A stretch of DNA of 64,000 nucleotides, taken from assembly GCA_032622095.1 (NCBI GenBank), contig CP136062.1, forward strand, positions 157,164,875-157,228,874, read 5' to 3'. The translations under genes were made by a program, and so were the position numbers. The stretch comes from Siphonodentalium dalli. Lineage: Eukaryota; Mollusca; Scaphopoda; Gadilida; Siphonodentaliidae. Below the pieces are notes generated by a model. The model was not told the DNA's origin and made no database searches. It worked only from the letters and a program-made list of their open reading frames with translations. Positions 19,468 to 51,781 of the stretch are shown here, in pieces (within the stretch, counting starts at the first letter, position 1; each line of letters opens with the position of its first letter).

Positions 19468-20809
19468 CTAACTGTAATGATGATGATGAATGGTAACATT
19501 CGAAGTCGGCATGTTGTATGTTATACCACACATGGGAACCCTCGAACGATTAAGAATAATCTCGGACCTGGTCTCCACCCTGCTGTGTACATTTGTCTGG
19601 TTTTGTGGTGCATTTATCAAAGGTCCACTTTCTGCTGCATTGTCCGAAATAAAGTTGCGAACTTCCTGTTGAAGGTAATTTTCTTGTGAAGAAGTTAGTT
19701 GGAGAATTTCTACATTAGATAGGTCTATCTCTGGGTCGACGACCAGATTTTATGTACTTTGTGGAGCATGTATTTCTTGTGAGTCAGAGTGAACAGGCAT
19801 TCCAGATACCGCATTTGCTAGAGTAGCCGCCATCTTTTCCTTCTGTTTCTCAATAACTTCGGATGCTGCTCTCCGACTTATGTCCAGATATAGCCATCAC
19901 ATGACGAGCCTCATAGTCATTGAGTAGGGTAATTGAGGTGGCACGTAAGCAGTGATTTGTATACGTTTTTGATAACTGGGCCGCTGATGACAACTTTTTC
20001 ATCTTGTCGCCCAACGTATTCTTTCCAACTGGAGAATTGTCATACCACGGTTCACTTTCAACAATCTTTGACTTTGGCCTTTGAAAGAAAAAGTCGCATT
20101 CGTGGTTTAATTTGGAAAGATACTTGACGAATGAGTTGTATGGACACATATTATTTCCAGTTTTGTAGATTCGGCCTCCTTGACTGTCGGTATCCTGGAC
20201 ACCACCTCTGTGGTTTTTTGTAGTCATATCTTTTAGCGAAATATATTTGCAATTCTCATCGAACACAAAATCAGTCTTTTTAATGTCACGAAGATTCTCT
20301 CGACCACGATTACAGAAATAATTCATAAAATCTAGGAAAACCTTGTCTTGCAGTCCACGCGGAGTGCCAATTTTCAGAAAATCATACAGTTTATTCAGAT
20401 CTTCTTTACTCAGCGCGTCCTTGTGGGTCACCTTCGCCTTACCCTCATGTTTCAATTTGGCTAAAACTGCACGGAATATTATGTTTGAGCTGGTGAATTC
20501 AGGTGAATTTACAATGTCCAAATTGTTCAACTTCTCGAAGTGTTTTTGCAGTCCATACCGGATTGACAGCATAGATTTCTGTGTGTACAATTCTCCATCA
20601 GTCTTTCTAGCAGCCGCATAAAACGATTTGAGAATGGAATCTAATTCCGAAGCAGCGACATCAGCCGTGGGAATTTCCAAAGATTTTACGCAGCAGTACG
20701 TTTTTAGAATGTTCACGGCACTTTTGATGACATTCTTTGTGCTTAGAGAATCTCTATTCTCTAACAAGTTATTGATGTCATCCTCGGAAATATCAGAAAA
20801 TCGAGACAT
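19468..20809 (-). pseudogene. Crypton-type tyrosine recombinase, late stops
   Basis: The protein from MSRFSDISEDDINNLL is a tyrosine recombinase of the Crypton/DUF3504 type (the domain also found in ZMYM, QRICH1 and KIAA1958 proteins). It cuts and rejoins DNA through a tyrosine. An N-terminal helical part (about residues 1-120) precedes the catalytic domain. That domain has NRGREN (first Arg), TTKNHRG (Lys), HCLRAT (H-x-x-R), SGHKSESS (His) and IRSY (nucleophile Tyr), so all catalytic positions are present. The start at 20809 is preferred over the ATG at 20890 because homologous sequence begins there. TGA at 19850-19852 falls directly after the catalytic tyrosine. The same frame then runs on to TAG at 19468-19470 with one more stop (TAA, 19750-19752), consistent with a decayed C-terminal tail. 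The core could still be active if the tail is dispensable. Confidence 0.75.
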
Positions 20810-20914
20810 AATTGTGTTGTTTTTCCAAGTGTGACAATGCGGAAATCCGGTATAATTAAAAAACGAAACCGGAAATAGCCGAAACGTCACGGAATTCGTT
20901 CCGGCCAGTCAACA

Positions 20915-25691: not shown

Positions 25692-26444
25692 ATGGATCAT
25701 TACATCATGGAGTTTGAGAAGAGGTATAACAAGACTCAAAAATTTCAAATGAAACTTCCACAATCAGTTCAGGCTTTTAAGCTTTTAGATGGAACTTGTT
25801 TAGAACACAAAGACCGGCAAATTGTTCTTACTGCTGTAAATTATGAGGACTCTGATTCGTTATTAAGACAAATGAGTGTGGCTTTAAGGAAATTCTTCGG
25901 AAAACAATCTATGACAGCTAATGAAAATAAAGATAGAAATATATATATCAAAGTGGAACCAGATGATTCTGAAGCGTGTGTTGCATTTCGGTATGGTGAT
26001 AGAGGACGTGGACAATATGACAGAAATAGAGGATTTTCTCGGGGTCATGGAGGTCAAGCACTGGATAGCTCTGGAGGGTTTCAACGAGGTCAAAATTTGC
26101 ATAGACCAGGCGGAAGGAATAAACGGCGGACTAATCCTATATCTTCTGATGGGAGGCCAATGAGGTGTGTAATCTGTGAAAGTATTTTGCATTTCGCCGC
26201 AGGATGTCCACATTCTTACGAGAACATGGAGAAAAGGACATCATTTTGTAATTCTGAAAATCGACAAGATGCAGAAGCTGTACTATTTACAGGAAATGTA
26301 GTGGAAGAAATGCAAGTTTTGGTCAATGAGACAATTTGTTGTGCTGTTCTGGACAGTGCTTGTAGCTCAACCGTCGCAGGAAAACTGTGGATGGAAAGTT
26401 TTCTTGATTCATTAACACCAGAGAATTTAGCAAAAGTGCAATGA
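25692..26444 (+). pseudogene. Ty1/copia-type element: gag, zinc knuckle, protease start
   Basis: The frame begins inside gag (MDHYIMEFEKRYNKTQKFQM; FKLLDGTCLEHKDRQIVLTA), so about the first hundred residues of a usual copia gag are absent. A CX2CX4HX4C knuckle (CVICESILHFAAGC) binds nucleic acid in such proteins. The protease begins with AVLDSACSSTVAGKLW, where D-S-A replaces the more common D-[ST]-G. TGA at 26442-26444 interrupts the frame, but the same frame continues to about 26736 with two more TGA codons, through VVDSDIPLLLGKPY, the conserved protease LLG region. It is a dead element, but its order is copia-like. Confidence 0.8.
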
Positions 26445-26736
26445 GAGGAGAGCTCAACTGTTTTCAGATTTGGTGGTGGAACAAGACTTGAATCAAGAAG
26501 GAAAGTAACTTTTCCGTGTGAATTAGCCGGAGTTGGAAGCATAATAACAACAGACGTTGTTGATAGTGACATTCCACTTTTGTTAGGAAAACCATATGTG
26601 AAGAAAGCAGGAATTGTTTTGGACTTGGTGAATGATCGTGCACGTATCTTTGACAAATATGTTGACTGACAATTAACATCTGCAGGACATTATTGTATTC
26701 CACTCTTTCAAACTGGTTACCATTCAGGAGACATGC

Positions 26737-28291
26737 ATGGTTGACATTTTCAAGGACACAGTTTCTTTAAATCAGATGCAGCATGTGGTCACCAAATTAC
26801 ATAAACAATTTGCTCATCCTTCTAGTGAACGTCTTAAAGTTCTTTTGAGAGATGCCAATCTGAGAGATAAGAGTTGTCTTGAAATCGTGGATAAGGTGAC
26901 TGAAAACTGTGATATATGCAAACGATATCGGAAAACTCCAAGTCGTCCAGTTGTGTGTGTACCAATTTATAAAACGTTCAATGATGTGGTTGCGATGGAT
27001 CTTAAGGAATGGGATAAAAATAAATGTATTTACTTCCTTCACATCATTGATATGGCAACTCGATTCTCTTTGGCATCAGTTATCTACAGCAAGAAACCAG
27101 AAGTTATTATAGACAATGTGATGAAAATGTGGATCGGTGGAGGTTTTGGTACTCCACAGAAAATTCTCACAGACAACGGAGGTGAATTTGCGTGTTCAAA
27201 GGTGAGACATGGCTGAAAATTTGAATATAGAAGTGATGAATACTGCTGCTAAATCGCCATGGCAGAATGGATTTTGTGAAAGAAACCATGCGGTAGTTGA
27301 TGCCAGTGTCAAGAAATTTATATCGGATCAACCTGATATGGACCTGAATACTGCTCTTATTTGGGCAATAAATGCTAAAGACTCTCTGCAGATGGTTTAT
27401 GGTTATATCCCATACCAGTTAGTGTTCGGATGCAATCCAAATCTACCTTCAGTACTTGTTGACAGACCACCAGCATTAAAAGGTTCGACACAAACTGAAA
27501 TATTTGCAAAACATTTAAATGTTTTGCACAGCGCTCGCCAAGCATTCATCGGAGCAGAAGCAACTGAAAAGATCCGAAGAGCACTCAGGCATCAGGTTCG
27601 GCCTAGTGGAGGTCGATATGAAATTGGCGACAAATTGTATTTCAAGAAGGAAAATTGTCATGAATGGAGCGGTCCTGGTAAGGTTTTAGGACAGGACGGA
27701 AAGATCGTGTTTGTTCATCACGGAAGTTTGTACATTAGAGTTACAGCATGTAGGATTGTTAAAGTTGGAAGTGAGTTCTCAACGAATGTTGGCGACAAAA
27801 CAAAAAATGATGTTAGTGTAGCTTCTGAGAAAATTCATAAAGAAATTAAAACGTTACCGGACATGATGGAATCGGATGACTCTGATGATTCTTCATTTCA
27901 AACTAATTCTGAACAGAACTTGCCATCAGAAAATGGAAATGTCCGAAATGAGATCAAGCTTCCAACATTGGGACAATCTGTTCGTTTTGTGCCAAAAGGA
28001 GATGATGAATGGTGTTATGTTGACATAGTGAGTCGTGGTGGTGAAGTTGGCGGAAAATATGCAGAATGGCTAAATGTTAAGGAACATGGAGATACCGGTA
28101 AGCCTGTAAGAACTATTGATTTTCGAAATGGAGTGGACAAGTGGGAATTATACGAAGAAAGTGAAGAATCGAGGGAAGAAAGTACTATAACTGATATGGA
28201 GGTGAACATAACACAATCTTCTAAAGATAGCGAGATTGTAGCTGCTGCAAAATGTCAGGAATTGGAAAATTGGAGTTTACGAGGAAGTTAA
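26737..28291 (+). pseudogene. Ty1/copia-type integrase, frameshifted
   Basis: The integrase first shows the zinc-binding H...H...CX2C region (KLHKQFAHPS...CDICKRYRK). The D,D-35-E core follows: MDLKEWD for the first Asp, LTDNGGEF for the second, then NGFCERNH for the Glu. A frameshift falls between the second Asp and the Glu, near 27200; the downstream frame starts at 27209. After the core come GDKLYFKKENCHEWSGPGKV, the usual small C-terminal domain, and a long acidic linker. The frame ends at TAA 28289-28291. It would insert the element's cDNA if intact. Confidence 0.8.
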
Positions 28292-29672
28292 TACTCTGGA
28301 TAGTCATTCATCTCAACCAGATGGGTTATAACTGAAAATTGTGCTGACGGACAACCGACAGTTAAAGCCAGATTAGTCGCCAGAGGGTTTGAAGAAATGG
28401 ATTCACACAGGACTGATTCTGCCACAGCAGGAAAGGATACACTTAAAATAGTCATTGGACAAGCTGCATCGTTATCATGGAAATGCAACATAATCGACAT
28501 CAAAGCTGCGTTTCTACAGGGGAACGCAATTGAAAGGGAAGTCCTGTTAAAATCTCCAAATGATTTGTACAATAATAAATTATGGAAGTTAAAGAAGTGT
28601 GTTTATGGACTTAACGATGCTTCTCGTCAGTAGTATTTCAGAGTGTGTGAAGTAATAAAATCATCAGGCTGCAAACAATCACGAAATGATCCTGCTCTTT
28701 TCTACAAGTGTTCTGACAAAGGACTAGACGGGCTTTTTCTGATGCATGTGGACGATTTCTTGTGGTGTGGTAATGAACAATTTCGAACGGGAGTGATTTC
28801 AGAGATCTTGCGAACATTTCAAATAGGAAAGGCTGCTCATGACCAATTTCGTTACATTGGATTGGACATTCATCAAAGTGATCAAAATATAATGATGAGT
28901 CAAACGCAGTATATTGGATCATTGTGTGGAATTCCAATAACTTCGGCGAGAGCTTCACAAAAGAATGAATCTCTAAGCAACAGTGAATTATCTCAATTGA
29001 GATGCGCTATCGGTCAGATAAATTGGGTCGTTAATCAAACACGACCTGACTCATCTTATGATGCATTGGAACTTAGTACATCAGTGAGATATACAAAAGT
29101 TGAACACATACTAACTGCAAATAAAGTAATCAAAAAGTTGCAGTTGGAAACTTACAACTTAGTTTTTCCACAATTTACCAAGATAGAGAACTTGAGACTC
29201 CGAGTTTACTGCGATGCGTCATTCGCAAATCTGCCTGACGGATATTCAAGTGCCGCTGGATTCATAATATTCTTGACTGACGAAAATGATTTGTCATGTC
29301 CTTTGTACTGGAAATCAACGAAAGTAAACCGAATAGTAAAAAGCACATTGGCAGCTGAGACGCTATCAATGGTGGAATCAGTAGATGCATCTTTCTTTCT
29401 TGGATGTATATTGAGTTAAATTATTCACCAGAGATGCGATAAAAACTTGATTCCAATAGACGTATTCACAGATAATAAATCCTTCCACCAAGACGGCGTC
29501 TGAGAAAAGACTTAGGATTGACATTGCTAGTTTAAAGGAGATGTTAAAACGAAATGAGATTGCCGAGATACGATGGGTGGACAGCTCTTTACAGCTATCA
29601 GACTGTCTGACAAAAAGAGGAGCTTCATCAAAGAAGCTTGCTGCTACGTTGAGCAACGGATATCGAGTTATG
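28292..29672 (+). pseudogene. Ty1/copia-type reverse transcriptase and RNase H, with stops
   Basis: In the same frame as the integrase tail, the RT reads VKARLVARGFEE, then DIKAAFLQG (first catalytic Asp region), then KCVYGLNDASRQ and TAG at 28631. It resumes to LFLMHVDDFLW (HVDD for YVDD), LRCAIGQINWVVNQTRPD and RNase H with VYCDASFANLPDGYSSAAGF and KSTLAAETLSMVE. TAA stops it at 29417-29419. A further frame covers VDSSLQLSDCLTKRGASSKK, the end of copia polyproteins. At least three stops in RT/RNase H mark it as inactive. The HVDD and protease details recall the mollusc/cnidarian copia clades (CoMol/GalEa), but the clade is a guess. Confidence 0.8.
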
Positions 29673-38221: not shown

Positions 38222-38227
38222 CGCATG
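38222..38227. other. Target site duplication, left (CGCATG)
   Basis: CGCATG directly precedes AGCAGCATG of the left arm and directly follows GCTGCT at the right (51776-51781). The duplication can be read as 9 bp (CGCATGAGC) if one AGC of the left end is counted as target. Confidence 0.75.
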
Positions 38228-38360
38228 AGCAGCATGTTTGTGACTGCAGCGTCATTTTCATGTGGGACCCCTTTCCTATAGATCTATGGCTCCATAGTAT
38301 GTCAACGCCCCCTTTCCTATGCTTTGTATATATGGCCCCATGGTATGGCAACGCCCCCCT

Positions 38361-38600
38361 TTAATTATTATATATCGCTCCTCCTTCCCACGTAATTTCT
38401 GGAACATTTTTATTGTTCTGGAAAATTCTGGAACATTTTTTTTGTTCTGGAACATTTTTATTGTTCTGGAACAATCTGGAACATTTTTTTTCTAGTAAAA
38501 TCCATAATGTATTCGTGTAATAAAATTCATATTTGTCTACGGCCTCTTTAAAATTATATAACTGTAAAGTCCCGATGTTAATTTCACACGGTACACACAT
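38361..38600 (-). other. Short ORF through the TTCTGGAA minisatellite
   Basis: A 79-codon frame, present in both arms (51403-51642 on the other strand), translates the minisatellite as NNKNVPEQKKCSR-type repeats. It is probably non-coding: its composition follows the repeat and it has no family resemblance. Confidence 0.25.
38416..38433. promoter_or_regulatory. Perfect four-unit heat-shock element, left arm
   Basis: TTCTGGAAAATTCTGGAA is TTCnnGAAnnTTCnnGAA, the four-pentamer binding site of heat-shock factor. It lies in a minisatellite of about 20 bp (TGTTCTGGAACATTTTTAT) from 38399 to 38489. A second near-perfect array at 38464-38481 has one mismatch. It also matches a simple palindrome TGTTCTGGAACA, so a different dimeric factor is possible. 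Confidence 0.55.
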
Positions 38601-39050
38601 TGGCTATCATAGCATCTATTTATTTACCACGCATAGAATATAGGCATTTAAAATTATTTATCAAATCTCCTTAAAACACTTCGGCCTCTTTAACTTTTTT
38701 TACCTTTAATAAAAACATTATTGATCTCACAGATTTATTAACTGTTATGTACCTGGTAGAAAACACATTCCACGAGGCACGCTTTCTAACAATAACAGAG
38801 CATCATGGAATATATTCTATAATGGTTTAAACGATTCCACATGTGCACTAAGAACGCGATACACTAAGTGTGTTTTCACCATGAATTTATCTGGTAATTT
38901 AAGCGTTCAAACACATTCGGGGTAACCGTAGATAATAGCCGATCTAATGTGTAATTCATTCAAACATGGGCCACATATCATTTGCACATATTGGGTAAGA
39001 AATTGTCTTTCTAAAAGGTTATGAAAAAGCCGACAAATTAAAACAATCTA

Positions 39051-39185
39051 GAATGTTCGAGAAAAAAAATGTTCCACATTGTTCCAGAACAATAAAAATG
39101 TTCCAGAATAACATCAAATTAGTGTGGCTGCAGGGCACAGAGCTCTCAAGCTAATAACACAACATATAACCATTCTGGAACATTC
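39051..39185. promoter_or_regulatory. Two perfect three-unit heat-shock elements, left arm
   Basis: GAATGTTCGAGAA at 39051-39063 and TTCTGGAACATTC at 39173-39185 are exact three-pentamer sites. Between them, two TTCCAGAA dyads occur (39080-39115). Their sequence context is not the 38.4-kb minisatellite, so the sites have arisen more than once. Confidence 0.5.
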
Positions 39186-40269
39186 TCCATACCGACGGGG
39201 ATAAAGCGGTGAAACAGATTAATGAGATTATGCATACCACTAGGTGATAAAACATTTAAGCCTGCACTAATTTGAATAAAAAACATTCAGGGGCCGGTAT
39301 CATTTGCACATATTGGTTAGGAAAAATAAAATGCCTTTCTAGCTGCCTCTGAAACAATTAATAAAAATTAAAATAATCTACAAAGTTCTCAGCACGTGGG
39401 AGACCATCTAGGTATTAAATACACATCTAACTCCAAGCAGCCAACATATGCTTACAGAGCATAACCCATGCAATTTAACTCTCACAAAAGTTATACCACG
39501 AGCGGCATGAACCCTGAATACATACTGACTCCCCATTATGTATCCCTCCTAATGGTCAACTGTTATGGTACAATTGATTAAATCATCACTAACATTAGTT
39601 AAGCTTTTTCTCTAAATACCCCTTTAATATCTGTAATCGAACTATTAGCAACCAATCAACGCCTTGCCAATAGATATTTGAACATTTCCAATAAAGTAAA
39701 TCCTACACACAATTTCTCGAAGCTTCGTAATTAAACACATGTTTAAGTCATTTAATGCCACGATAGGTCTGTCATTCAAATGCATGCTCCTAATGGCTTC
39801 TGCATCTGTGGAGACTGAGAGATAAACAAAATTAATGTTTCTGTAGAAATTAAGGTTTTCTAGTGTGTCACTACTTCAGATATGGTTCAAATAGCATACA
39901 AATCACCGCGTTTTGGTCACATACCTTAAAGGTACACGTCATTTATGCATTTAAACCTAATTCCGCGTATACATCAATCATCTCTTTATTTTCCAAATAG
40001 TTTGAATGTACCTAGTTTTAACAGAGATTTATGCAATCTACATGCTTTCATTCATATAAAATTTACCAAATGTATGTTAAACGACAACAACATTGTAACA
40101 GACTGGCCACTTACCTTCAATTTATAGGTCATATTAGCCTGTACATTTATGGGAGACAGACATACATAATATAATGCATTGGCACAGTGTTAGTGATAAT
40201 AATAAGGTGTCATTACTTCAGAAATGGTTCCAATAGCATACTATTGTACCCGTGGTCACATACCTTAAA

Positions 40270-40530
40270 GGAACACGTCACTTAAGCATTTAAACATAAC
40301 TCAGTGAATCTATCAATAAAACGCTCTTTATTTTCAAAATTTGTCTTAATTGTACTACATTTATATTTAAAATTAAGCATTTAAACCTAATTCCGTCTAT
40401 CCGTAAATAAAACACGCTCTTTATTTTCAAAATTTGTCTTAATGTCCATCGTATACTAAATTTATATTTAAAATTAAGCATTTAAACATAATTCATCGTA
40501 TCCATAAATAAAAAACGCTCTTTATTTTCA
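40270..40530 (+). repeat. Tandem repeat of about 90 bp containing ACGCTCTTTATT
   Basis: AAGCATTTAAACATAATTC, AACGCTCTTTATTTTCAAAA and TTGTCTTAATTGTAC/GTCC blocks repeat three times. A partial relative lies at 39945-40010. The same array is inverted at 49475-49725. Confidence 0.75.
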
Positions 40531-40764
40531 AAAACGTCCATAGTTTTAACAAAGAGTTTTGCAATCTACATGCTTTCATTCATATAAAATTACCCCGTGT
40601 GTGTTAGACAACAACATTATAACATATTGGCTTTCAAGTTACATATGCATGTACATTCGATGCACGAGGCAACATTGTAGGAAATGAAGGTATTGATGTG
40701 TCATTACTTCAGAAATTGTTCATACAATTGACCGTATTTTGATCACATACCTTAAAGGTACACG

Positions 40765-41031
40765 TTACTTTTGTCTATAATCACACAAAACATTACACGT
40801 AGGGTTCAACATGTCCACCGTAGTAAGCTTATTTACTTCAGAAATTGGTTCCAATAACAGCGTCTGAGAACGCCACACATGGTTGTACCGGGTGCCAATG
40901 ATGTACCCACGCATCTCAAACAATGGGATGCCTATTAATTTATTCTGACCACACGTGTCTGGACAGCGTTCCAATGAAGGAATTCTGAAAAAGCTATTGT
41001 TAGAGAAAGAAATGACGCTGTGCCAACTCAT
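40765..41031 (-). CDS. Unknown 88-residue protein, left arm copy
   Basis: An intact frame begins MSWHSVISFSNNSFF and includes ERCPDTCGQNKLIGIPLFEM and LLLEPISEVNKL. The right-arm copy is also intact and differs at two residues (S/C and H/Q). It is divergent from the PC4-like gene, 144 bp away, sharing an intergenic region with a CCAAT-type box and a dyad. It contains four cysteines. I do not recognise the family; it could be a small element-encoded protein or a partial exon. Confidence 0.4.
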   Translation of the reverse strand: MSWHSVISFSNNSFFRIPSLERCPDTCGQNKLIGIPLFEMRGYIIGTRYNHVWRSQTLLLEPISEVNKLTTVDMLNPTCNVLCDYRQK

Positions 41032-41059
41032 ACATATTGATTATATATTTCTAGTGATT

Positions 41060-41106
41060 CTGATTGGCTAATAATATATGGAGCAGCATAGCGTTCACAA
41101 CGCTAT
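41060..41106. promoter_or_regulatory. Divergent promoter region with dyad, left arm
   Basis: Between the two divergent genes are CTGATTGGCTAAT (inverted CCAAT box, about 41059-41071) and a perfect dyad ATAGCGTTCACAACGCTAT (41088-41106). The dyad has 8-bp half-sites and a 3-bp centre. It is a plausible binding site for a dimeric regulator of both genes. The same bases occur in the right arm at about 48898-48916. Confidence 0.4.
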
Positions 41107-41175
41107 CTGGTTTTCCTATGAATAATGTGATCATGTCATTTTGAGGCACTTTCTGAAACTACCTGCTACATAAAC

Positions 41176-41742
41176 ATGGACACTAAAATTTTCGCAAAAC
41201 ACTTGGGTCGTAACAGATATCTCACAATCAGTGAGTTTTTGGGTACAAAGTATGTAGATCTGAGAATTTGGGATGAAGGAAGGATTCCAACTAAACAAGG
41301 AGTTAGTCTGATAATTCAACGCTGGCTTTGTCTAACACAAAACCTTGAATTAGTGGGACAGCATATAAATTCCAAGGAGCCAATGGACCGGATTCATTTG
41401 GGGCATAATGTTTTCATGACCCTGGATCATGAACATGCAGTGGTGCACATCAAACAGTACTTTTATCCAGAAAATTGTGATGTAGCAACACCAACCAGGA
41501 AAGGTGTTACTTTAAATGGAGCAGAGCTGAAAACAATTACAGATAATGTGGAAAATGTCAATGGGCTCATTCCTGAAACAGTAAACTTCATACCCTGTTA
41601 CAACGAACACTTGAACCAGGAAGCAGCCTTAAGATGTTCTGAATGTGAACCCGGTGGATACCATAATTATACACAGGACAAGACTGATGTAATACCAGGA
41701 CATTTCTATGGAAACTCTCAAGACTTGACACAACAATACTAA
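41176..41742 (+). CDS. Double PC4/Sub1-like protein, left arm copy
   Basis: An intact single-exon frame of 188 residues. Residues 14-53 (RYLTISEFLGTKYVDLRIW, then PTKQGVSLIIQRW) match the PC4 fold: a curved beta-sheet followed by P-x-K-x-G-[IV]-S-L and a helix. Residues 73-129 repeat the pattern (IHLGHNVFMTLDHEHAVVHI, then PTRKGVTLNGAEL). The C-terminal part has Cys 141, 154 and 157, and ends LTQQY. PC4/Sub1 proteins bind single-stranded or melted DNA and act as transcription coactivators; a role as the element's ssDNA-binding protein is my inference. The gene points toward the spacer. The right copy differs by one residue, so selection or gene conversion keeps both intact. AATAAA follows 107 bases after the stop. 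Confidence 0.75.
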   Translation: MDTKIFAKHLGRNRYLTISEFLGTKYVDLRIWDEGRIPTKQGVSLIIQRWLCLTQNLELVGQHINSKEPMDRIHLGHNVFMTLDHEHAVVHIKQYFYPENCDVATPTRKGVTLNGAELKTITDNVENVNGLIPETVNFIPCYNEHLNQEAALRCSECEPGGYHNYTQDKTDVIPGHFYGNSQDLTQQY

Positions 41743-41848
41743 TATAGTGAGACTGACTTCAATGTAACCATTTTTCCTGGACATTTTTAATTCAATGTTG
41801 TGTGTGTGTGTGTGTTTAAGTATATTTCATAACAAGATAGTATATAGC

Positions 41849-41854
41849 AATAAA
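41849..41854 (+). terminator. Poly(A) signal AATAAA after the PC4-like gene
   Basis: AATAAA lies 107 bases after the stop codon, in the normal range for a 3' UTR. The right arm carries the complement at 48150-48155. Confidence 0.45.
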
Positions 41855-41871
41855 TAGCACCAGTTAAATGT

Positions 41872-42003
41872 ATCCAATGTATTGTTGTCTATCATATAAC
41901 CCATCAATTGGCACAATAGACATGATATACTTACTAATATAGATATATATATATACAAACTGTTCATACATTAGATATGAACTTCTTGAAATTGAAAATT
42001 GCA
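41872..42003. other. Left-arm-specific patch
   Basis: This segment lies between GTTAAATGTATCCAATG and GCACATCACCATCTGG and has no match in the right arm, where 47849-48128 replaces it. It contains an AT dinucleotide run at about 41938-41955. Confidence 0.7.
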
Positions 42004-42911
42004 CATCACCATCTGGAAACTAATATATGTGTATATGTAGAAGATGAGGCTATGCAGAATGAGATCCCCAGAAGATGAATTTATTGATGCTAGCCCGCTG
42101 TGATTTTTGGTTTGTGACAAGCTATGTCAATAACCAATAAAAGAAATTTAAAAGATAATTTGTAAGTCTTATATTTCAACTTTTATAGATATTTTTCGTT
42201 CTGCAGCCCACTGATAGTTGTGATCGGAGACGACCGAGTCCGCCTGAAATTGAAAAAAAAATCCATATCAGGAAGGATTTTTCAATAAGTCCTTTGATAA
42301 TCTAACTATAAGCAACTGATTTCGAGCCATGTATTGCACCCAGAATTGTTGGCGATTTCGAAAGATTATGTTTAAAAGAAACCGCAGTGAAATCACACCG
42401 AAATTGACGAAGATACGGGACATTTGTTGTTTTCAACTATTTATAGATATCACGTGACTAATATCGAAAATCCAATTTTGGCAGATCGTAGAAGAGCTAG
42501 AATAATGAGGATTACACCATCGGGCCCAGTTTCACACAGTGCGTTACCTCCATCGAAAAAGAACGTGTATACATGCATATTAAAAAATATTATATTTTCA
42601 ACCTCGGTGTGACAAACTTTTGAATAGAGAGAATGCTATTATCGATCGCCTAATTCTACACGCAGTCAAATTTCAATGAATGTGGAAAGCTGTTGTCATT
42701 GTGATGTTTATAGTATTCCGTAGTAAATGCTGGATTTAAATTGTATAGTAAATAACGATCAATAGCGGAAATGGTGAATTCTTATGCGGTGCGTGTGAAC
42801 TTGTATTTAAAAGGGCAAAGACTGTTTGTTAGTTGAATACATACATATTACGGCTCTCATTTTGAACTTGCCTAATGTCTATTAACTCACCGATTAAGGG
42901 CCAGAAAGGTT

Positions 42912-43277
42912 CTATATATGTCTTAGGTTACCTGGTATTACAATGAAATGTGTTAGAAAATATATTGCATTAAAATGTGCATTATTAGTGAACCCTTTTC
43001 GCAGAACTGCCTTTTTCACCATTGGATGAATCACGTATGAGTCATGTCTATACATCGTACTTAGCCATTCAAATCCCTTTATTCGTTGTTCGGTAAATTT
43101 ATGAGTTAAAAGTACAGGACGGCAAAACGCCGCAAAACGCCGCCCCGCCGCAAAACGCCGCCCCGCCGCAAAACGCCGCAAAACGCCGCCCCGCCGCAAA
43201 ACGCCGGAAAACGCCGCAAACGCAATGACGTCACTACCAATGGCGAGAGAGTCTCTACTTTTTTGGTTTTGGAGCAA
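42912..43277 (-). other. Uncertain 121-codon ORF across the GCC minisatellite
   Basis: The minus-strand frame starts MLQNQKSRDSLAIGSD, crosses the GC-rich repeat as RRGGVLRRFAAGRRFAAG, and ends in KAVLRKGFTNNAHFNAIYFL. In the right arm it is 115 codons because one repeat unit is missing, yet the frame is kept. No family was recognised. Preservation may simply reflect young arms. Confidence 0.3.
43118..43229. repeat. GC-rich minisatellite (AAAACGCCGCCCCGCCGC), left arm
   Basis: Units of AAAACGCCGC and CCCGCCGC alternate about ten times. It is the only strongly GC-rich, CpG-dense patch of the arm; the right arm copy (about 46645-46735) is 18 bp shorter. Confidence 0.85.
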
Positions 43278-44239
43278 AATAACATGACATGTGGTACATA
43301 CTAATTTTTTTTATTATATTATCTATTCACTGTCACTTTCATCCGCTTTGTCATCACTGTCACTGAATTTTCCATACCTAGTGTCTACAATATGTTTATA
43401 TATTGTGACTCATTACTACGATTGCAGTATGTCCACGTATGTCAGATATAACATAACCTTGATAACTTTGTTTAGAAATACCTGGTATATGAGATCATAT
43501 TGTAGCTGACAGAGACTGGAATGCGACTTGCATCTACCATCACGTGCGTTCGAATGAAGTTACATGTACGATATGAGCCATTATATGTGTCGATGAGGTG
43601 TTATATCAGTATATTCATGCAATATTCGTAAATGACAGCAACATATCTTTTCCCTACCATTATCAAGCGAGATTTTGTGGTTAGCTGACAAACATGGCAT
43701 TTCGAATATATATAGCCTATTGGACACTTACTTCAAATGCTAAAATTGCCTCTTCAAAATAGTTAAAAGCACACATTTTTATTTCGAATTTCATTGTTTA
43801 CGGTTTTTATTTCCTGTTATGAAATTGGTCCTTTTATAAACGCGTAATACGCAGTTACAAAAAGCCCTAATTGACAAACATTTTAAGCGCTATTATGACT
43901 ATATTCGACGAATAAAAAAAACGCCATTTGACATAGTACAACAACGCGAAATGACTACTTTTTTAAACGCGAATTTGAAACAAAACTAATATACAAAAGA
44001 ATTTTAAACTAAAATAATAAGTTTGGTTGATGTATAGTTTGGTTGACAGCATTTTCACACACAGAAGCGTTATGATACAGATTCACCACTCACACAGAAG
44101 CGATCTTATACGGTGTAGCGGTATGTTACAGAGTTATCGTTCTTTTCGAGGCTAAAAAAAGCGCAGGCCGGTCCCCTCCCTCTCCCCCGTTTTAAAAGGG
44201 GCGGGGTTAAGGGGGAGCGATCGAGCGTCACGAAAAAAT

Positions 44240-45627
44240 TTCACCCCATTTTACACATAACCCTTCTACATATTTACCACAATTCTACTTTTACCCTTAC
44301 CCAATATAACCCCCTCCCTTCCGAACTTTTTAGCCATCATCTTTATGCTACTTTGTGCATCATTCATGTTCTTTGCCCTATGTCCCTGTCATTTCATATA
44401 AGTTTACACCATTTTGCATGTGTTCTCCTTTTTACTACTGTATCCTTAATACACAAACCACCAAGTTCATACACATATACGTATACTTTCCATTCATTCT
44501 CTGCTTTATGTTTACTCTTTTGTCACGTTACATCCCCTATGTTTTCGACCAACTGCTTACACCTAAATTATATATATATATATATGTGTGTCCCCTTTTA
44601 CCCATCTCTTCTCCCCTCCACCCAGTTCATATGATGTAGTTATACTTTTACCCATATGGCCCTCTTTTCTCACTCCCTCTACCTGGTGCCATTTTATTTT
44701 CTATACCATTTAAGCCCCTTGCCGGCTCTTACCCATAATTACTGTCTGCAAGCATGGTAACCCCTCTCTTCCAAAGCAAAACCCCCACATTTCATATGAT
44801 TTAGGTATATACTCAATGATTATTCTTATCTCATCTACTTTAATTATGTACATGTTCCCCAACCCAGCTCTCTGCTATACACCTCTATGTATTTCACCCT
44901 ATACCCCATTTACCTTGCTCCACATAACCACCTTTCATTCTTGTTTACCTTCCCCTTTTGTACCTCTAAACACTTTGTTCTTCCCACAACAATCCCAATG
45001 TTTTCCTAGGAAAGTAATGCTTACTACTCAACGTATTCTCCAAATTATACCCTTCTGCACCCATTTACTTGCCTCTCACTCTCCCCGTCGCCTTCCCCAT
45101 TTTACACATGTATAAACCTCTGTTGAGTGGCTTTTGTTAGCCTCCTATACTCTTCGCTATACACCTATATACACTCTCCCAATGCCCCTTTACCCTTTTC
45201 CCATAAGCACCTTTCATGCTTTTAATGTCTCCCTTTTCCATTTTATACACCTCTTATTTTACCTCTGTTCTACCCACAACAATCCCAATGTTTTCCTAGG
45301 AAAGTAAGGCTTACACCTCAATGTTTTCTCCAAATTATACCCTTCTCCCCCAATTTCTTGCCTCTCGCTCTCCCCATCTCCTCCCCCTTTTTGCACCATC
45401 TACATGTATAAACCTATATTGAGTGGTTTTTCCTAGCCTCCTAAGCTCTTCACTATATGTTAATTCATATATTAAAAACCATGAACAGTGTACACTACCT
45501 AATCCATTATCATCTCCAATTAATACACGGTCATATCATCCCATCCCCATTTCCCACACTCCATTACCCCTCATACTGTGTTGTTTCCCCCATCCATTTC
45601 CTCTGCCTTATACTTTTCTTCTATGAC
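44240..45627 (+). other. Central spacer of the giant element, pyrimidine-rich
   Basis: 1388 bp of strongly C/T-rich plus strand (ACCCTTCTACATATTTACC style) with no inverted partner. Two related blocks of about 184 bp start CCCACAACAATCCCAATG at 44983 and 45273 (290 bp apart) and share GTTTTCCTAGGAAAGTAA and CCAAATTATACCCTTCT. Open frames here (44353-44639, 44816-45115) are low-complexity Ser/Pro/Leu readings and look non-coding. The spacer is bounded by CGTCACGAAAAAAT and its complement. Confidence 0.75.
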
Positions 45628-46644
45628 ATTTTTTCGTGACGCGCGATCGCTCCCCTTAACACCGCCCCTTTTAAAACGGGGGAGAGGGAGGGGGCCGGCC
45701 TGCGCTTTTTTTAGCCTCGAAAAGAACGATAACTCTGTAACATACCGCTACACCGTATAAGATCGCTTCTGTGTGAGTGGTGAAACTGTATCATAACGCT
45801 TCTGTGTGTGAAAATGCTGTCAACCAAACTATACATCAACCAAACTTATTATTTTAGTTTAAAATTCTTTTGTATATTAGTTTTGTTTAAAATTCGCGTT
45901 TAAAAAAGTAGTCATTTCACGTTGTTGTACTACGTCAAATGGCGTTTTTTTTATTCGTCAAATATAGTCATAATAGCGCTTAAAATGCTTGTCAATTAGG
46001 GCTTTTTGTAACTGCGTATTAAGCATTTATAAAAGGACCAATTTCATAACAGGAAATTAACCGTAAACAATGAAATTCGAAATAAAAATGTGTACTTTTA
46101 ACTATTTTGAAGAGGCAATTTTAGCATTTGAAGTAAGTGTCCAATAGGCTATATATATTCGAAAATGCCATGTTTGTCAGCTAACCACAAAATCTCGCTT
46201 GATAATGGTAGGGAAAAGATATGTTGCTGTCATTTACGAATATTGCATGAATATACTGATATAACACCTCATCGACACATATAATGGCTCATATCGTACA
46301 TGTAACTTCATTCGAACGCACGTGATGGTAGATGCAAGTCGCATTCCAGTCTCTGTCAGCTACAATATCATCTCATATACCAGGTATTTCTAAACAAAGT
46401 TATCAAGGTTATGTTATATCTGACATACGTGGACATACTGCAATCGTAGTAATGAGTCACAATATATAAACATATTGTAGACACTAGGTATGGAAAATTC
46501 AGTGACAGTGATGACAAAGCGGATGAAAGTGACAGTGAATAGATAATATAATAAAAAAAATTAGTATGTACCACATGTCATGTTATTTTGCTCCAAAACC
46601 AAAAAAGTAGAGACTCTCTCGCCATTGGTAGTGACGTCATTGCG

Positions 46645-46735
46645 TTTGCGGCGTTTTCCGGCGTTTTGCGGCGGGGCGGCGTTTTGCGGCGTTTTGCGGC
46701 GGGGCGGCGTTTTGCGGCGTTTTGCCGTCCTGTAC
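46645..46735. repeat. GC-rich minisatellite, right arm
   Basis: Complement of the left copy at 43118-43229, one 18-bp step shorter. The uncertain 115-codon frame 46588-46935 (plus) spans it. Confidence 0.8.
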
Positions 46736-47848
46736 TTTTAACTCATAAATTTACCGAACAACGAATAAAGGGATTTGAATGGCTAAGTACGATGTATAGA
46801 CATGACTCATACGTGATTCATCCAATGGTGAAAAAGGCAGTTCTGCGAAAAGGGTTCACTAATAATGCACATTTTAATGCAATATATTTTCTAACACATT
46901 TCATTGTAATACCAGGTAACCTAAGACATATATAGAACCTTTCTGGCCCTTAATCGGTGAGTTAATAGACATTAGGCAAGTTCAAAATGAGAGCCGTAAT
47001 ATGTATGTATTCAACTAACAAACAGTCTTTGCCCTTTTAAATACAAGTTCACACGCACCGCATAAGAATTCACCATTTCCGCTATTGATCGTTATTTACT
47101 ATACAATTTAAATCCAGCATTTACTACGGAATACTATAAACATCACAATGACAACAGCTTTCCACATTCATTGAAATTTGACTGCGTGTAGAATTAGGCG
47201 ATCGATAATAGCATTCTCTCTATTCAAAAGTTTGTCACACCGAGGTTGAAAATATAATATTTTTTAATATGCATGTATACACGTTCTTTTTCGGTGGAGG
47301 TAACGCACTGTGTGAAACTGGGCCCGATGGTGTAATCCTCATTATTCTAGCTCTTCTACGATCTGCCAAAATTGGATTTTCGATATTAGTCACGTGATAT
47401 CTATAAATAGTTGAAAACAACAAATGTCCCGTATCTTCGTCAATTTCGGTGTGATTTCACTGCGGTTTCTTTTAAACATAATCTTTCGAAATCGCCAACA
47501 ATTCTGGGTGCAATACATGGCTCGAAATCAGTTGCTTATAGTTAGATTATCAAAGGACTTATTGAAAAATCCTTCCTGATATGGATTTTTTTTTCAATTT
47601 CAGGCGGACTCGGTCGTCTCCGATCACAACTATCAGTGGGCTGCAGAACGAAAAATATCTATAAAAGTTGAAATATAAGACTTACAAATTATCTTTTAAA
47701 TTTCTTTTATTGGTTATTGACATAGCTTGTCACAAACCAAAAATCACAGCGGGCTAGCATCAATAAATTCATCTTCTGGGGATCTCATTCTGCATAGCCT
47801 CATCTTCTACATATACACATATATTAGTTTCCAGATGGTGATGTGCAC

Positions 47849-48128
47849 CCATTGGGCACCTCGATTATGCATTGTGTCGTCTGCCAATATGGGGATATAG
47901 AGAAACCAAACTAAAAAAGTAAAAGAAGCTAATTTCACCCTCTGGGGACCTCATTATGTAAATGTCCAGCACGATCTTGAGGCCTGATTAAAACAATGAT
48001 ACACTTTTCTCAAATAGTTCATTACCACCTAATCGATAGGGTAATAGGGGAAATATTCAAACCTTTTCAGTTACATAATCTTGTGGTCGAACCCATATGG
48101 TCGACTCGCATATATAAGAGAATGCATT
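47849..48128. other. Right-arm-specific patch with MITE fragment
   Basis: About 280 bp replace the left arm's 131-bp segment. Its outer end, GGTCGACTCGCATATATAAG then AGAATGCATTGG, is the same palindrome half found in the piggyBac-like element at 1298-1697. The rest (CATTGGGCACCTCGATTATG and on) is not seen elsewhere in the window. Confidence 0.7.
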
Positions 48129-48149
48129 GGATACATTTAACTGGTGCTA

Positions 48150-48155
48150 TTTATT
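48150..48155 (-). terminator. Poly(A) signal of the right PC4-like gene
   Basis: TTTATT on the plus strand, that is AATAAA for the minus-strand gene, 106 bases after its stop. Confidence 0.45.
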
Positions 48156-48261
48156 GCTATATACTATCTTGTTATGAAATATACTTAAACACACACACAC
48201 ACACAACATTGAATTAAAAATGTCCAGGAAAAATGGTTACATTGAAGTCAGTCTCACTATA

Positions 48262-48828
48262 TTAGTATTTTTGTGTCAAGTCTTGAGAGTTTCCATAGAA
48301 ATGTCCTGGTATTACATCAGTCTTGTCCTGTGTATAATTATGGTATCCACCGGGTTCACATTCAGAACATCTTAAGGCTGCTTCCTGGTTCAAGTGTTCG
48401 TTGTAACAGGGTATGAAGTTTACTGTTTCAGGAATGAGCCCATTGACATTTTCCACATTATCTGTAATTGTTTTCAGCTCTGCTCCATTTAAAGTAACAC
48501 CTTTCCTGGTTGGTGTTGCTACATCACAATTTTCTGGATAAAAGTACTGTTTGATGTGCACCACTGCATGTTCATGATCCAGGGTCATGAAAACATTATG
48601 CCCCAAATGAATCCGGTCCATTGGCTCCTTGGAATTTATATGCTGTCCCACTAATTCAAGGTTTTGTGTTAGACAAAGCCAGCGTTGAATTATCAGACTA
48701 ACTCCTTGTTTAGTTGGAATCCTTCCTTCATCCCAAATTCTCAGATCTACATACTTTGTACCCAAAAACTCACTGATTGTGAGATATCTGTTACGACCCA
48801 AGTGTTTTGCGAAAATTTTAGTGTCCAT
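48262..48828 (-). CDS. Double PC4/Sub1-like protein, right arm copy
   Basis: An intact 188-codon minus-strand gene, identical to the left copy (41176-41742) except the penultimate residue (K for Q). It has the same two PC4-like modules, with R14-Y15 and G42-V-S-L in the first and G76...K109-G-V-T-L in the second. It likewise points toward the central spacer, so the two copies are convergent across the element. Because the arms are near identical, transcripts of the two genes could not be told apart by short reads. Confidence 0.75.
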   Translation of the reverse strand: MDTKIFAKHLGRNRYLTISEFLGTKYVDLRIWDEGRIPTKQGVSLIIQRWLCLTQNLELVGQHINSKEPMDRIHLGHNVFMTLDHEHAVVHIKQYFYPENCDVATPTRKGVTLNGAELKTITDNVENVNGLIPETVNFIPCYNEHLNQEAALRCSECEPGGYHNYTQDKTDVIPGHFYGNSQDLTQKY

Positions 48829-48897
48829 GTTTATGTAGCAGGTAGTTTCAGAAAGTGCCTCAAAATGACATGATCACATTATTCATAGGAAAACCAG

Positions 48898-48945
48898 ATA
48901 GCGTTGTGAACGCTATGCTGCTCCATATATTATTAGCCAATCAGA
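48898..48945. promoter_or_regulatory. Divergent promoter region with dyad, right arm
   Basis: Complement of the left-arm region: ATAGCGTTGTGAACGCTAT at 48898-48916 and ATTAGCCAATCAG at about 48933-48945. Confidence 0.4.
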
Positions 48946-48972
48946 ATCACTAGAAATATATAATCAATATGT

Positions 48973-49239
48973 ATGAGTTGGCACTGCGTCATTTCTTTCT
49001 CTAACAATAGCTTTTTCAGAATTCCTTCATTGGAACGCTGTCCAGACACGTGTGGTCAGAATAAATTAATAGGCATCCCATTGTTTGAGATGCGTGGGTA
49101 CATCATTGGCACCCGGTACAACCAGGTGTGGCGTTCTCAGACGCTGTTATTGGAACCAATTTCTGAAGTAAATAAGCTTACTACGGTGGACATGTTGAAC
49201 CCTACGTGTAATGTTTTGTGTGATTATAGACAAAAGTAA
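48973..49239 (+). CDS. Unknown 88-residue protein, right arm copy
   Basis: An intact frame MSWHCVISFSNNSFF ... ending CNVLCDYRQK. Two amino-acid differences from the left copy at 40765-41031. Family unknown. Confidence 0.4.
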   Translation: MSWHCVISFSNNSFFRIPSLERCPDTCGQNKLIGIPLFEMRGYIIGTRYNQVWRSQTLLLEPISEVNKLTTVDMLNPTCNVLCDYRQK

Positions 49240-49474
49240 CGTGTACCTTTAAGGTATGTGATCAAAATACGGTCAATTGTATGAACAATTTCTGAAGTAA
49301 TGACACATCAATACCTTCATTTCCTACAATGTTGCCTCGTGCATCGAATGTACATGCATATGTAACTTGAAAGCCAATATGTTATAATGTTGTTGTCTAA
49401 CACACACGGGGTAATTTTATATGAATGAAAGCATGTAGATTGCAAAAATCTTTGTTAAAACTATGGACGTTTTT

Positions 49475-49725
49475 GAAAATAAAGAGCGTTTTTTATTTAT
49501 GGATACGATGAATTATGTTTAAATGCTTAATTTTAAATATAAATTTAGTATACGATGGACATTAAGACAAATTTTGAAAATAAAGAGCGTTTTTTATTTA
49601 CGGATAGACGGAATTAGGTTTAAATGCTTAATTTTAAATATAAATGTAGTACAATTAAGACAAATTTTGAAAATAAAGAGCGTTTTATTGATAGATTCAC
49701 TGAGTTATGTTTAAATGCTTAATTG
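49475..49725 (-). repeat. Inverted copy of the ACGCTCTTTATT tandem repeat
   Basis: Three units with AATAAAGAGCGTTTT, the complement of 40270-40530. Confidence 0.75.
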
Positions 49726-50817
49726 ACGTGTTCCTTTAAGGTATGTGACCACGGGTACAATAGTATGCTATTGGAACCATTTCTGAAGTAATGACACCTT
49801 ATTATTATCACTAACACTGTGCCAATGCATTATATTATGTATGTCTGTCTCCCATAAATGTACAGGCTAATATGACCTATAAATTGAAGGTAAGTGGCCA
49901 GTCTGTTACAATGTTGTTGTCGTTTAACATACATTTGGTAAATTTTATATGAATGAAAGCATGTAGATTGCATAAATCTCTGTTAAAACTAGGTACATTC
50001 AAACTATTTGGAAAATAAAGAGATGATTGATGTATACGCGGAATTAGGTTTAAATGCATAAATGACGTGTACCTTTAAGGTATGTGACCAAAACGCGGTG
50101 ATTTGTATGCTATTTGAACCATATCTGAAGTAGTGACACACTAGAAAACCTTAATTTCTACAGAAACATTAATTTTGTTTATCTCTCAGTCTCCACAGAT
50201 GCAGAAGCCATTAGGAGCATGCATTTGAATGACAGACCTATCGTGGCATTAAATGACTTAAACATGTGTTTAATTACGAAGCTTCGAGAAATTGTGTGTA
50301 GGATTTACTTTATTGGAAATGTTCAAATATCTATTGGCAAGGCGTTGATTGGTTGCTAATAGTTCGATTACAGATATTAAAGGGGTATTTAGAGAAAAAG
50401 CTTAACTAATGTTAGTGATGATTTAATCAATTGTACCATAACAGTTGACCATTAGGAGGGATACATAATGGGGAGTCAGTATGTATTCAGGGTTCATGCC
50501 GCTCGTGGTATAACTTTTGTGAGAGTTAAATTGCATGGGTTATGCTCTGTAAGCATATGTTGGCTGCTTGGAGTTAGATGTGTATTTAATACCTAGATGG
50601 TCTCCCACGTGCTGAGAACTTTGTAGATTATTTTAATTTTATTAATTGTTTCAGAGGCAGCTAGAAAGGCATTTTATTTTTCCTAACCAATATGTGCAAA
50701 TGATACCGGCCCCTGAATGTTTTTTATTCAAATTAGTGCAGGCTTAAATGTTTTATCACCTAGTGGTATGCATAATCTCATTAATCTGTTTCACCGCTTT
50801 ATCCCCGTCGGTATGGA

Positions 50818-50952
50818 GAATGTTCCAGAATGGTTATATGTTGTGTTATTAGCTTGAGAGCTCTGTGCCCTGCAGCCACACTAATTTGATGTTATTCTGG
50901 AACATTTTTATTGTTCTGGAACAATGTGGAACATTTTTTTTCTCGAACATTC
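50818..50952. promoter_or_regulatory. Two perfect three-unit heat-shock elements, right arm
   Basis: GAATGTTCCAGAA at 50818-50830 and TTCTCGAACATTC at 50940-50952 are the complements of the left sites, both unmutated. Confidence 0.5.
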
Positions 50953-51569
50953 TAGATTGTTTTAATTTGTCGGCTTTTTCATAACCTTTTAGAAAGACAA
51001 TTTCTTACCCAATATGTGCAAATGATATGTGGCCCATGTTTGAATGAATTACACATTAGATCGGCTATTATCTACGGTTACCCCGAATGTGTTTGAACGC
51101 TTAAATTACCAGATAAATTCATGGTGAAAACACACTTAGTGTATCGCGTTCTTAGTGCACATGTGGAATCGTTTAAACCATTATAGAATATATTCCATGA
51201 TGCTCTGTTATTGTTAGAAAGCGTGCCTCGTGGAATGTGTTTTCTACCAGGTACATAACAGTTAATAAATCTGTGAGATCAATAATGTTTTTATTAAAGG
51301 TAAAAAAAGTTAAAGAGGCCGAAGTGTTTTAAGGAGATTTGATAAATAATTTTAAATGCCAATATTCTATGCGTGGTAAATAAATAGATGCTATGATAGC
51401 CAATGTGTGTACCGTGTGAAATTAACATCGGGACTTTACAGTTATATAATTTTAAAGAGGCCGTAGACAAATATGAATTTTATTACACGAATACATTATG
51501 GATTTTACTAGAAAAAAAATGTTCCAGATTGTTCCAGAACAATAAAAATGTTCCAGAACAAAAAAAATG

Positions 51570-51587
51570 TTCCAGAATTTTCCAGAA
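51570..51587. promoter_or_regulatory. Perfect four-unit heat-shock element, right arm
   Basis: TTCCAGAATTTTCCAGAA, the complement of 38416-38433, also unmutated. Confidence 0.55.
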
Positions 51588-51775
51588 CAATAAAAATGTT
51601 CCAGAAATTACGTGGGAAGGAGGAGCGATATATAATAATTAAAGGGGGGCGTTGCCATACCATGGGGCCATATATACAAAGCATAGGAAAGGGGGCGTTG
51701 ACATACTATGGAGCTATAGACCTATAGGAAAGGGGTCCCACATGAAAATGACGCTGCAGTCACAAACATGCTGCT

Positions 51776-51781
51776 CGCATG
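51776..51781. other. Target site duplication, right (CGCATG)
   Basis: Directly abuts the terminal GCTGCT of the right arm; it matches 38222-38227. Confidence 0.75.

Follow-up and report, generated by a model that had tools for sequence, protein, structure and literature searches.

A palindromic element with 6-kb arms in the scaphopod Siphonodentalium dalli is very likely a non-autonomous Polinton

Polintons (Mavericks) are thought to link transposons and viruses, and their mode of replication has largely been deduced from gene content. Very long inverted repeats are found in Galileo and foldback transposons, the inverted repeats of adenovirus have a role in panhandle formation, and snap-back defective genomes of DNA viruses are palindromic, carry two copies of one end and depend on helper enzymes. 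In the portions of the sources consulted, vertebrate Mavericks are described as having (AGT)2, (AG)3 or (AC)3A ends, 6-bp target duplications and, where intact, terminal inverted repeats (TIRs) of 46-1,447 bp (PMC8097293), adenovirus as having a doubled terminal triplet (3'-GTAGTA) and jumping back (PMC4974454), and Rehavkus as having a 9-bp duplication and TIRs of 26-400 bp (PMC6446971). Here we describe a 13,548-bp element at positions 38228-51775 of a 64,000-nucleotide stretch of the S. dalli genome (contig CP136062.1; the whole stretch is called the window below), most of which consists of two inverted arms. We consider it very likely that this element is a non-autonomous palindromic Polinton, replicated by the terminal protein (TP) and DNA polymerase (PolB) of Polintons, copied through a panhandle and inserted by a Polinton integrase (INT).

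The element begins with AGCAGCATG and terminates in CATGCTGCT, and a 6-bp target-site duplication (TSD), CGCATG, is read in the sequence on its left (38222-38227) and right (51776-51781). The original prediction, which gave the bounds as 38222-51781, was right about the structure, but its figures are the outer edges of the two duplications. The left arm, a giant TIR of about 6.0 kb on the plus strand starting with AGCAGCATG (38228-44243), is mirrored on the minus strand by a right arm of about 6.15 kb (about 45623-51775). Between them lies a central spacer of about 1.4 kb (about 44244-45622), which is pyrimidine-rich on the plus strand and contains an internal direct duplication of about 300 bp (79%). 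The arms had been described as near identical over about 6 kb, and this holds for the first five 1-kb bins, where 4,865 aligned sites contain 11 substitutions (the innermost full bin has 14 in 997), but not for one island, where 41880-41999 on the left and 47848-48124 on the right are non-homologous. The left island (plus strand) is of the type found in relatives and has no counterpart in the right arm; the right island (minus strand) replaces the ancestral segment and includes about 35 bp of the end of a miniature inverted-repeat transposable element (MITE). The arms also differ in the number of an 18-bp repeat near 43128.

Other copies, on which the original prediction depended, were found in the genome searched, which comprises 2.23 Gb in nine contigs. 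With 38222-38500 as query, the best 40 of 262 candidates were scored and are mostly inverted pairs. The end pattern AGCAGCRTGNTTGTRACTNNNG has 52 forward and 53 reverse matches (105 in total), whereas the same pattern read backwards as a control has 0 and 0; thus, the end matches are not due to chance. Of these 105 matches, 100 were listed: 45 plus/minus pairs (90 matches), with 4.65-20.55 kb between the two ends, and 10 unpaired ones. The variable bases agree between the two ends in 41 of the 45 pairs, whereas 10,000 shuffled pairings average 5.0 such pairs and never exceed 14. In one 20.6-kb member (C8:92760759-92781311), part of an arm is present once more in the interior. A 6-bp direct repeat is present in all 22 elements for which both ends were read (the window copy and 10 others, C6:7046389, and 10 more), as expected from the earlier claim of a mobile element with 6-bp duplications. 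Ends of this family consist of (AGC)2//(GCT)2, and one left end has AGCAGCGTG further in. The duplication directly abuts AGCAGC/GCTGCT in 18 of the 22 elements, and in the other 4 it lies beyond extra GCT triplets at one end (one in C8:96.57, C1:175.43 and C1:264.26; four in C1:5.79). This variation in terminal triplet number matches the expectation for protein-primed replication. For C1:27.80, which is inserted in a tandem array, the flanks joined with one TSD correspond without gaps to a neighbouring repeat of that array over 142 bp (98.6%), and this repeat is, as judged by sequence, a related empty site. The other nine flanks tested had no empty-site match among the sequences compared.

Near-perfect inverted arms can also arise from the sequencing or assembly process, through a hairpin read, a missed adapter or an inverted duplication. 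This explanation has a negligible probability in our view, as there are 45 end pairs at many places and target duplications in 22 of 22 elements, the flanks differ on the two sides, and there are private differences between the arms. A sequencing or assembly fold-back was rejected on the basis of the unlike flanks, the target duplication and the many copies elsewhere. The inverted-arm element with its target duplication is real.

The duplications bear on a second alternative, namely the capture of viral genes by a DNA transposon of the foldback or Mutator (Rehavkus-like) type. Such an element would be in keeping with the very long inverted repeats and their internal tandem repeats, and the longer direct repeat CGCATGAGCA that flanks the window insertion could mean a 9-10-bp duplication. 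Yet 21 other elements have a 6-bp duplication, no transposase domain was detected in the 14 frames of the window element tested, and a Polinton has identical AGCAGCATG ends. CGCATGAGCA is best read as the 6-bp duplication plus a chance match, and capture by a Rehavkus-like transposon appears highly improbable. A Mutator-type Rehavkus foldback was rejected, since the duplication is 6 bp in 22 of 22 elements against the 9 bp expected.

The Polinton with these ends, C6:7046389-7066008 (19.6 kb, of which 15.1 kb were read), is the type of longer relative, with integrase or polB, that would be expected if the palindrome derives from a virus-like element. It has AGCAGCATG ends, a TSD of GATGTC and TIRs of 414 bp that are 99% identical; the TIR matches the terminal 401 bp of the window element (38228-38628, plus strand) at 81.6% identity. 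Its genes were recognized by homology to Polinton A1 (C1:205517597-205534070, approximate boundaries), which encodes a PolB (7.2e-38) and a chromo-integrase (rve 1.7e-14) and has a 1.2-kb TIR (96.6%), AGAAGAATAG ends and, by manual reading, a 6-bp duplication of CATATA. The homologues of A1 in the C6 Polinton comprise TP/PolB-N (6.5e-16), PolB in two pieces (2e-22 and 2e-24), integrase in two frames (3e-51 and 5e-29), ATPase (49%, 5e-72), MCP-like (1e-14) and minor-capsid-like (3e-14) frames. The A1 frames are labelled "TP", "MCP-like" and "minor-capsid-like" here on the basis of Polinton gene order; neither the TP frame nor the MCP-like frame of A1 has a Pfam match. When the N-terminal open reading frame (ORF) of the C6 Polinton was used as a query, single copies were found within the AGCAGC pairs C3:53892097-53908064 and C5:224859647-224877375, along with matches near two single AGCAGC ends on C5. 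Overall, a Polinton TP/PolB-N frame is enclosed by 3 of the 45 end pairs. Polintons A1 and B1 have different ends and no long DNA in common with the window element, apart from short dispersed-repeat matches.

Several further observations concern the Polintons of this genome. A PolB search (PF03175) gave 149 matches for the best 69 of 1,596 candidates, with many open frames of about 952 amino acids at near-equal scores and fewer of about 1312 amino acids, which suggests recently active Polintons. A second Polinton class at C1:137913677-137927985 (L043, L044, L046) has a PolB frame of about 1312-1322 amino acids, and the outer ends of its TIR are TGTTA, with a possible 5-bp duplication (GCAGA) that deviates from the 6-bp rule. 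The C6 Polinton carries an ORF with BIR and RING domains (inhibitor-of-apoptosis-like; L049:2710-3375, minus strand; BIR 8.6e-16).

The genes carried by the palindromes also have homologues in Polintons. The window element contains a gene of 188 amino acids for a PC4-domain protein, a type that binds single-stranded DNA, with two matched PC4 stretches (41176-41742, plus strand; Pfam PF02229 7.5e-14), and its second copy in the right arm (48262-48828, minus strand) differs by one amino acid. Among the 14 frames tested against Pfam, only the PC4 frame scored above the cut-off, and no packaging ATPase was found in the element. In the 10 relatives fetched, five have the PC4 gene and the other five a different arm gene, P4, of 203-214 amino acids, for which no Pfam family scores above the cut-off. 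The AGCAGC pair C2:182270925-182283441 encloses both PC4 and P4 matches; thus, these cargo modules are not mutually exclusive. The spacers of two of the 10 relatives (loci L015 and L017) contain an ORF of 545-582 amino acids that starts with a C2H2 finger at the N-terminus and also has a packaging-ATPase domain (above cut-off for Pox_A32 at 1e-5, below it for Adeno_IVa2 at 0.008-0.009), and at least 14 copies of a packaging-ATPase frame 98-100% identical to P0001 occur genome-wide, four of them with an in-frame stop. Polinton A1 has homologues of all three cargo types (P4 55%, 3e-62; PC4 30%, 1e-18; ATPase 32%, 2e-21). The statement that core Polinton genes are absent is therefore correct for the window copy, but not for the family, given the at least 14 ATPase frames elsewhere, two of them read in sister spacers, and the A1 homologue of the window PC4 gene. 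Tblastn detected neither PC4 nor P4 in those 15.1 kb of the C6 Polinton that were read, and scans of viral contigs with the PC4 protein, the PC4 alignment and the P4 alignment gave no relative. The ratio of amino-acid-changing to silent substitution (dN/dS) in comparisons between cargo genes is below 1 but moderate for the ATPase (0.40-0.51) and P4 (0.40-0.62); the comparison of PC4 with A1 is saturated and gives no value, and one P4 pair has no value under one of the two methods.

The original prediction left open a palindromic derivative of a larger virus-like element or a distinct class, and noted that the ends recall Polintons. The C6 Polinton has these very ends, and the ends, duplication and cargo genes together tie the element to Polintons, which favours the former possibility and leaves the distinct class without support. 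The terminal triplets point the same way: AGCAGC in this family, AGAAGA in Polinton A1 and TGATGA in the ATPase palindromes described below resemble the doubled triplet of adenovirus and the (AGT)2 ends of Mavericks, which supports the assignment to Polintons.

How the two arms of an element remain alike can be read from comparisons among copies. When the first kilobase is compared among 22 arms (11 elements), the two arms of an element are 99.3-100% identical, whereas the best cross value between elements has a mean of 90.1% and a maximum of 99.1% over element pairs. In 10 of the 11 elements the left arm groups with the right arm as its sister (the C8:96.57 pair was not recovered). Arms this similar within elements, with a mean difference of about 10% between elements, indicate that arms are copied onto each other. 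A stretch of about 246 bp (42000-42245, plus strand) is common to both window arms and present in 0 of the 10 fetched relatives, and 140 bp of it match a dispersed repeat outside or beside Polinton A1; it thus looks like a repeat that entered one arm and was then passed on to the second.

Copying could take place during replication, or it could follow insertion. According to the latter possibility, the element is the same Polinton derivative, and gene conversion within the chromosome maintains the similarity of its arms. The arms of a palindrome are well suited to conversion, they are highly identical along their length, and the partial transfer of the 246-bp insertion resembles the edge of a conversion tract. 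The PC4 codons speak against this possibility. In 10 copies from six elements (of 11 copies fetched, a right-arm copy split between two loci being left out), the three variable sites shared by two or more copies are all silent, while the six singletons all change an amino acid, so that the differences between left and right arms resemble decay that went uncorrected once the element was inserted. The numbers are small, with a chance of 1 in 84 (calculated by hand) for this split, and one singleton belongs to an element that has just one PC4 gene; one silent site differs between the two C4:82.81 arms. We regard post-insertion conversion as possible, though on the whole unlikely. The codon pattern suggests that the PC4 protein may be under selection while the lineage replicates and that single arms may decay neutrally once inserted.

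Based upon the ends, the target duplications, the empty site, the Polinton with the same ends, the homologous cargo and the copying between arms, we infer that Polinton enzymes probably mobilise the palindromes in trans. Replication of the element would start at its (AGC)2 ends, with jumping back, and would be carried out by the terminal protein and PolB of a Polinton. The displaced single strand could then fold into a panhandle, because the 6-kb arms are complementary, and within the panhandle one arm could template the other or guide its repair. A Polinton integrase would insert the linear copy, giving rise to the 6-bp duplication. The PC4 protein would be a natural candidate for a single-strand binding factor in this strand-displacement cycle, and packaging within Polinton particles may be a further possibility.

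Several observations weigh against this proposal. The window element has no recognisable polymerase, integrase or capsid protein when compared with Pfam and the frames of A1 and B1. The C6 Polinton shares with it only the terminal 400 bp or so, at 81.6% identity, and the copy read has disrupted PolB and INT genes. The Pfam scores of these genes are below curated cut-offs (DNA_pol_B_2 0.0018; rve 0.0018 and 0.002), and their assignment thus depends on similarity to A1 and B1. The members at C3:53.89 and C5:224.86 are known from one match each and end reads alone. The arms of C1:121.66 are 1.24 kb only, and therefore a full palindrome either is not required for every insertion or was lost afterwards. 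Divergence between arms in successive 1-kb bins from the ends is 0.19, 0.27, 0.64, 0.21, 0.25, 0.63, 0.35 and 0.13%, with no clear gradient inward in the 10 of 11 elements used (C8:92.76 was left out due to its internal duplication). Finally, a single-sequence structure model of PC4 has a pLDDT (predicted local distance difference test) of 32, too poor for a fold search.

Palindromes are not restricted to the AGCAGC family. A search with the ATPase gave at least 62 matches at 84-85% identity, 36 of which form 18 diverging pairs whose starts are separated by 2.4-3.3 kb. One such palindrome, C1:96597727-96604624, ends in TGATGATACC, and these elements constitute a second palindromic family with TGATGA ends, an ATPase in each arm and 6-bp duplications in all four elements read (TTGAAG, TCCGTC, CATAGC and AAGGAG). 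PC4 homologues at 45% identity (a frame of 198 amino acids) form nine diverging pairs 8.8-9.3 kb apart among the 25 matches listed, and 36 of 41 listed full-length PC4 matches at 96% identity or more fall into 18 converging pairs. None of the three sets contains neighbours in another orientation within 20 kb among the matches listed, and unpaired matches may have partners outside them. Palindromic genomes might be how an entire guild of Polinton satellites reproduces. Its different families would each keep one or two selected Polinton genes (PC4, P4 or packaging ATPase) in duplicate arms, live with gene-complete Polintons as helper and satellite or as parts of a multipartite system, and use arm copying via hairpins as built-in proofreading of protein-primed replication. 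This extension is speculative, and we would sooner bet against it.

The remaining features of the window are as follows. Subterminal TTCTGGAACA repeats occur in the left arm at 38397-38491 and 39062-39108 (plus strand) and are mirrored in the right arm; their repeated TTCTGGAA motifs resemble heat-shock elements (TTCnnGAA). A self-inverse MITE-like repeat of about 230 bp lies at 1444-1674, and its ends recur in the right-arm island (48096-48130); an end of about 35 bp also matches loci L043 and L047. An open frame at 19850-20890 (minus strand) matches a tyrosine recombinase (Phage_integrase 2.7e-6), with DUF3504 just below cut-off, and is presumably Crypton/DIRS-like. At 25692-29419 (plus strand), RVT_2 and rve_3 matches below cut-off in two frames mark what we take to be the remnant of a Copia-like retrotransposon. 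Rfam and tRNA scans of the window gave no matches.

We found no account of non-autonomous, satellite or palindromic Polintons or Mavericks in the open-licence literature, a scope that leaves Repbase outside. Among the papers listed for Polintons with palindromes, panhandles and satellites or defective interference, the titles and opening lines of abstracts name no such element, the consulted portion of PMC4028283 has nothing on palindromic or non-autonomous derivatives, and the adintovirus-related literature, to the extent surveyed, has no mention of PC4. The palindromic element is thus probably a variant of the known Polinton kind that has seemingly gone undescribed. If so, the palindromes would be Polinton satellites with selected cargo within a large eukaryotic genome. 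They would provide natural evidence, over many copies, in which variable end triplets and arm copying mark protein-primed replication within an assembly, and giant palindromes like these might also affect the stability and the assembly of genomes.

Among known systems, foldback, Galileo and Rehavkus elements have very long inverted repeats as well, but their duplications are longer than the 6 bp seen here, where there is Polinton cargo and no transposase domain was found. Snap-back genomes are also palindromes with two copies of one end that rely on helper enzymes; here, however, the palindrome is an integrated lineage whose cargo gene has signs of selection. The doubled terminal triplet and the variation in triplet number fit the jumping back described for adenovirus in the part of PMC4974454 consulted, but the present element is integrated in a host genome and each of its arms makes up about 45% of its length, so that this is an analogy rather than membership. 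Polintons, including adintovirus-like ones, are closest. With them the element shares the 6-bp target duplication, a doubled terminal triplet starting with AG (compare (AGT)2 or (AG)3 in the consulted part of PMC8097293), PC4, P4 and ATPase homologues in a Polinton of the same genome, and ends identical to those of a Polinton bearing INT, PolB and capsid-like genes. It differs in that the window element has no recognised INT, PolB or capsid gene, and in its TIR of about 6 kb, which makes almost the entire element palindromic, against 46-1,447 bp in the intact vertebrate Mavericks of that source. As in a non-autonomous Polinton, its ends are common to an enzyme-coding member of the same genome, whose enzymes are decayed in the copy read.

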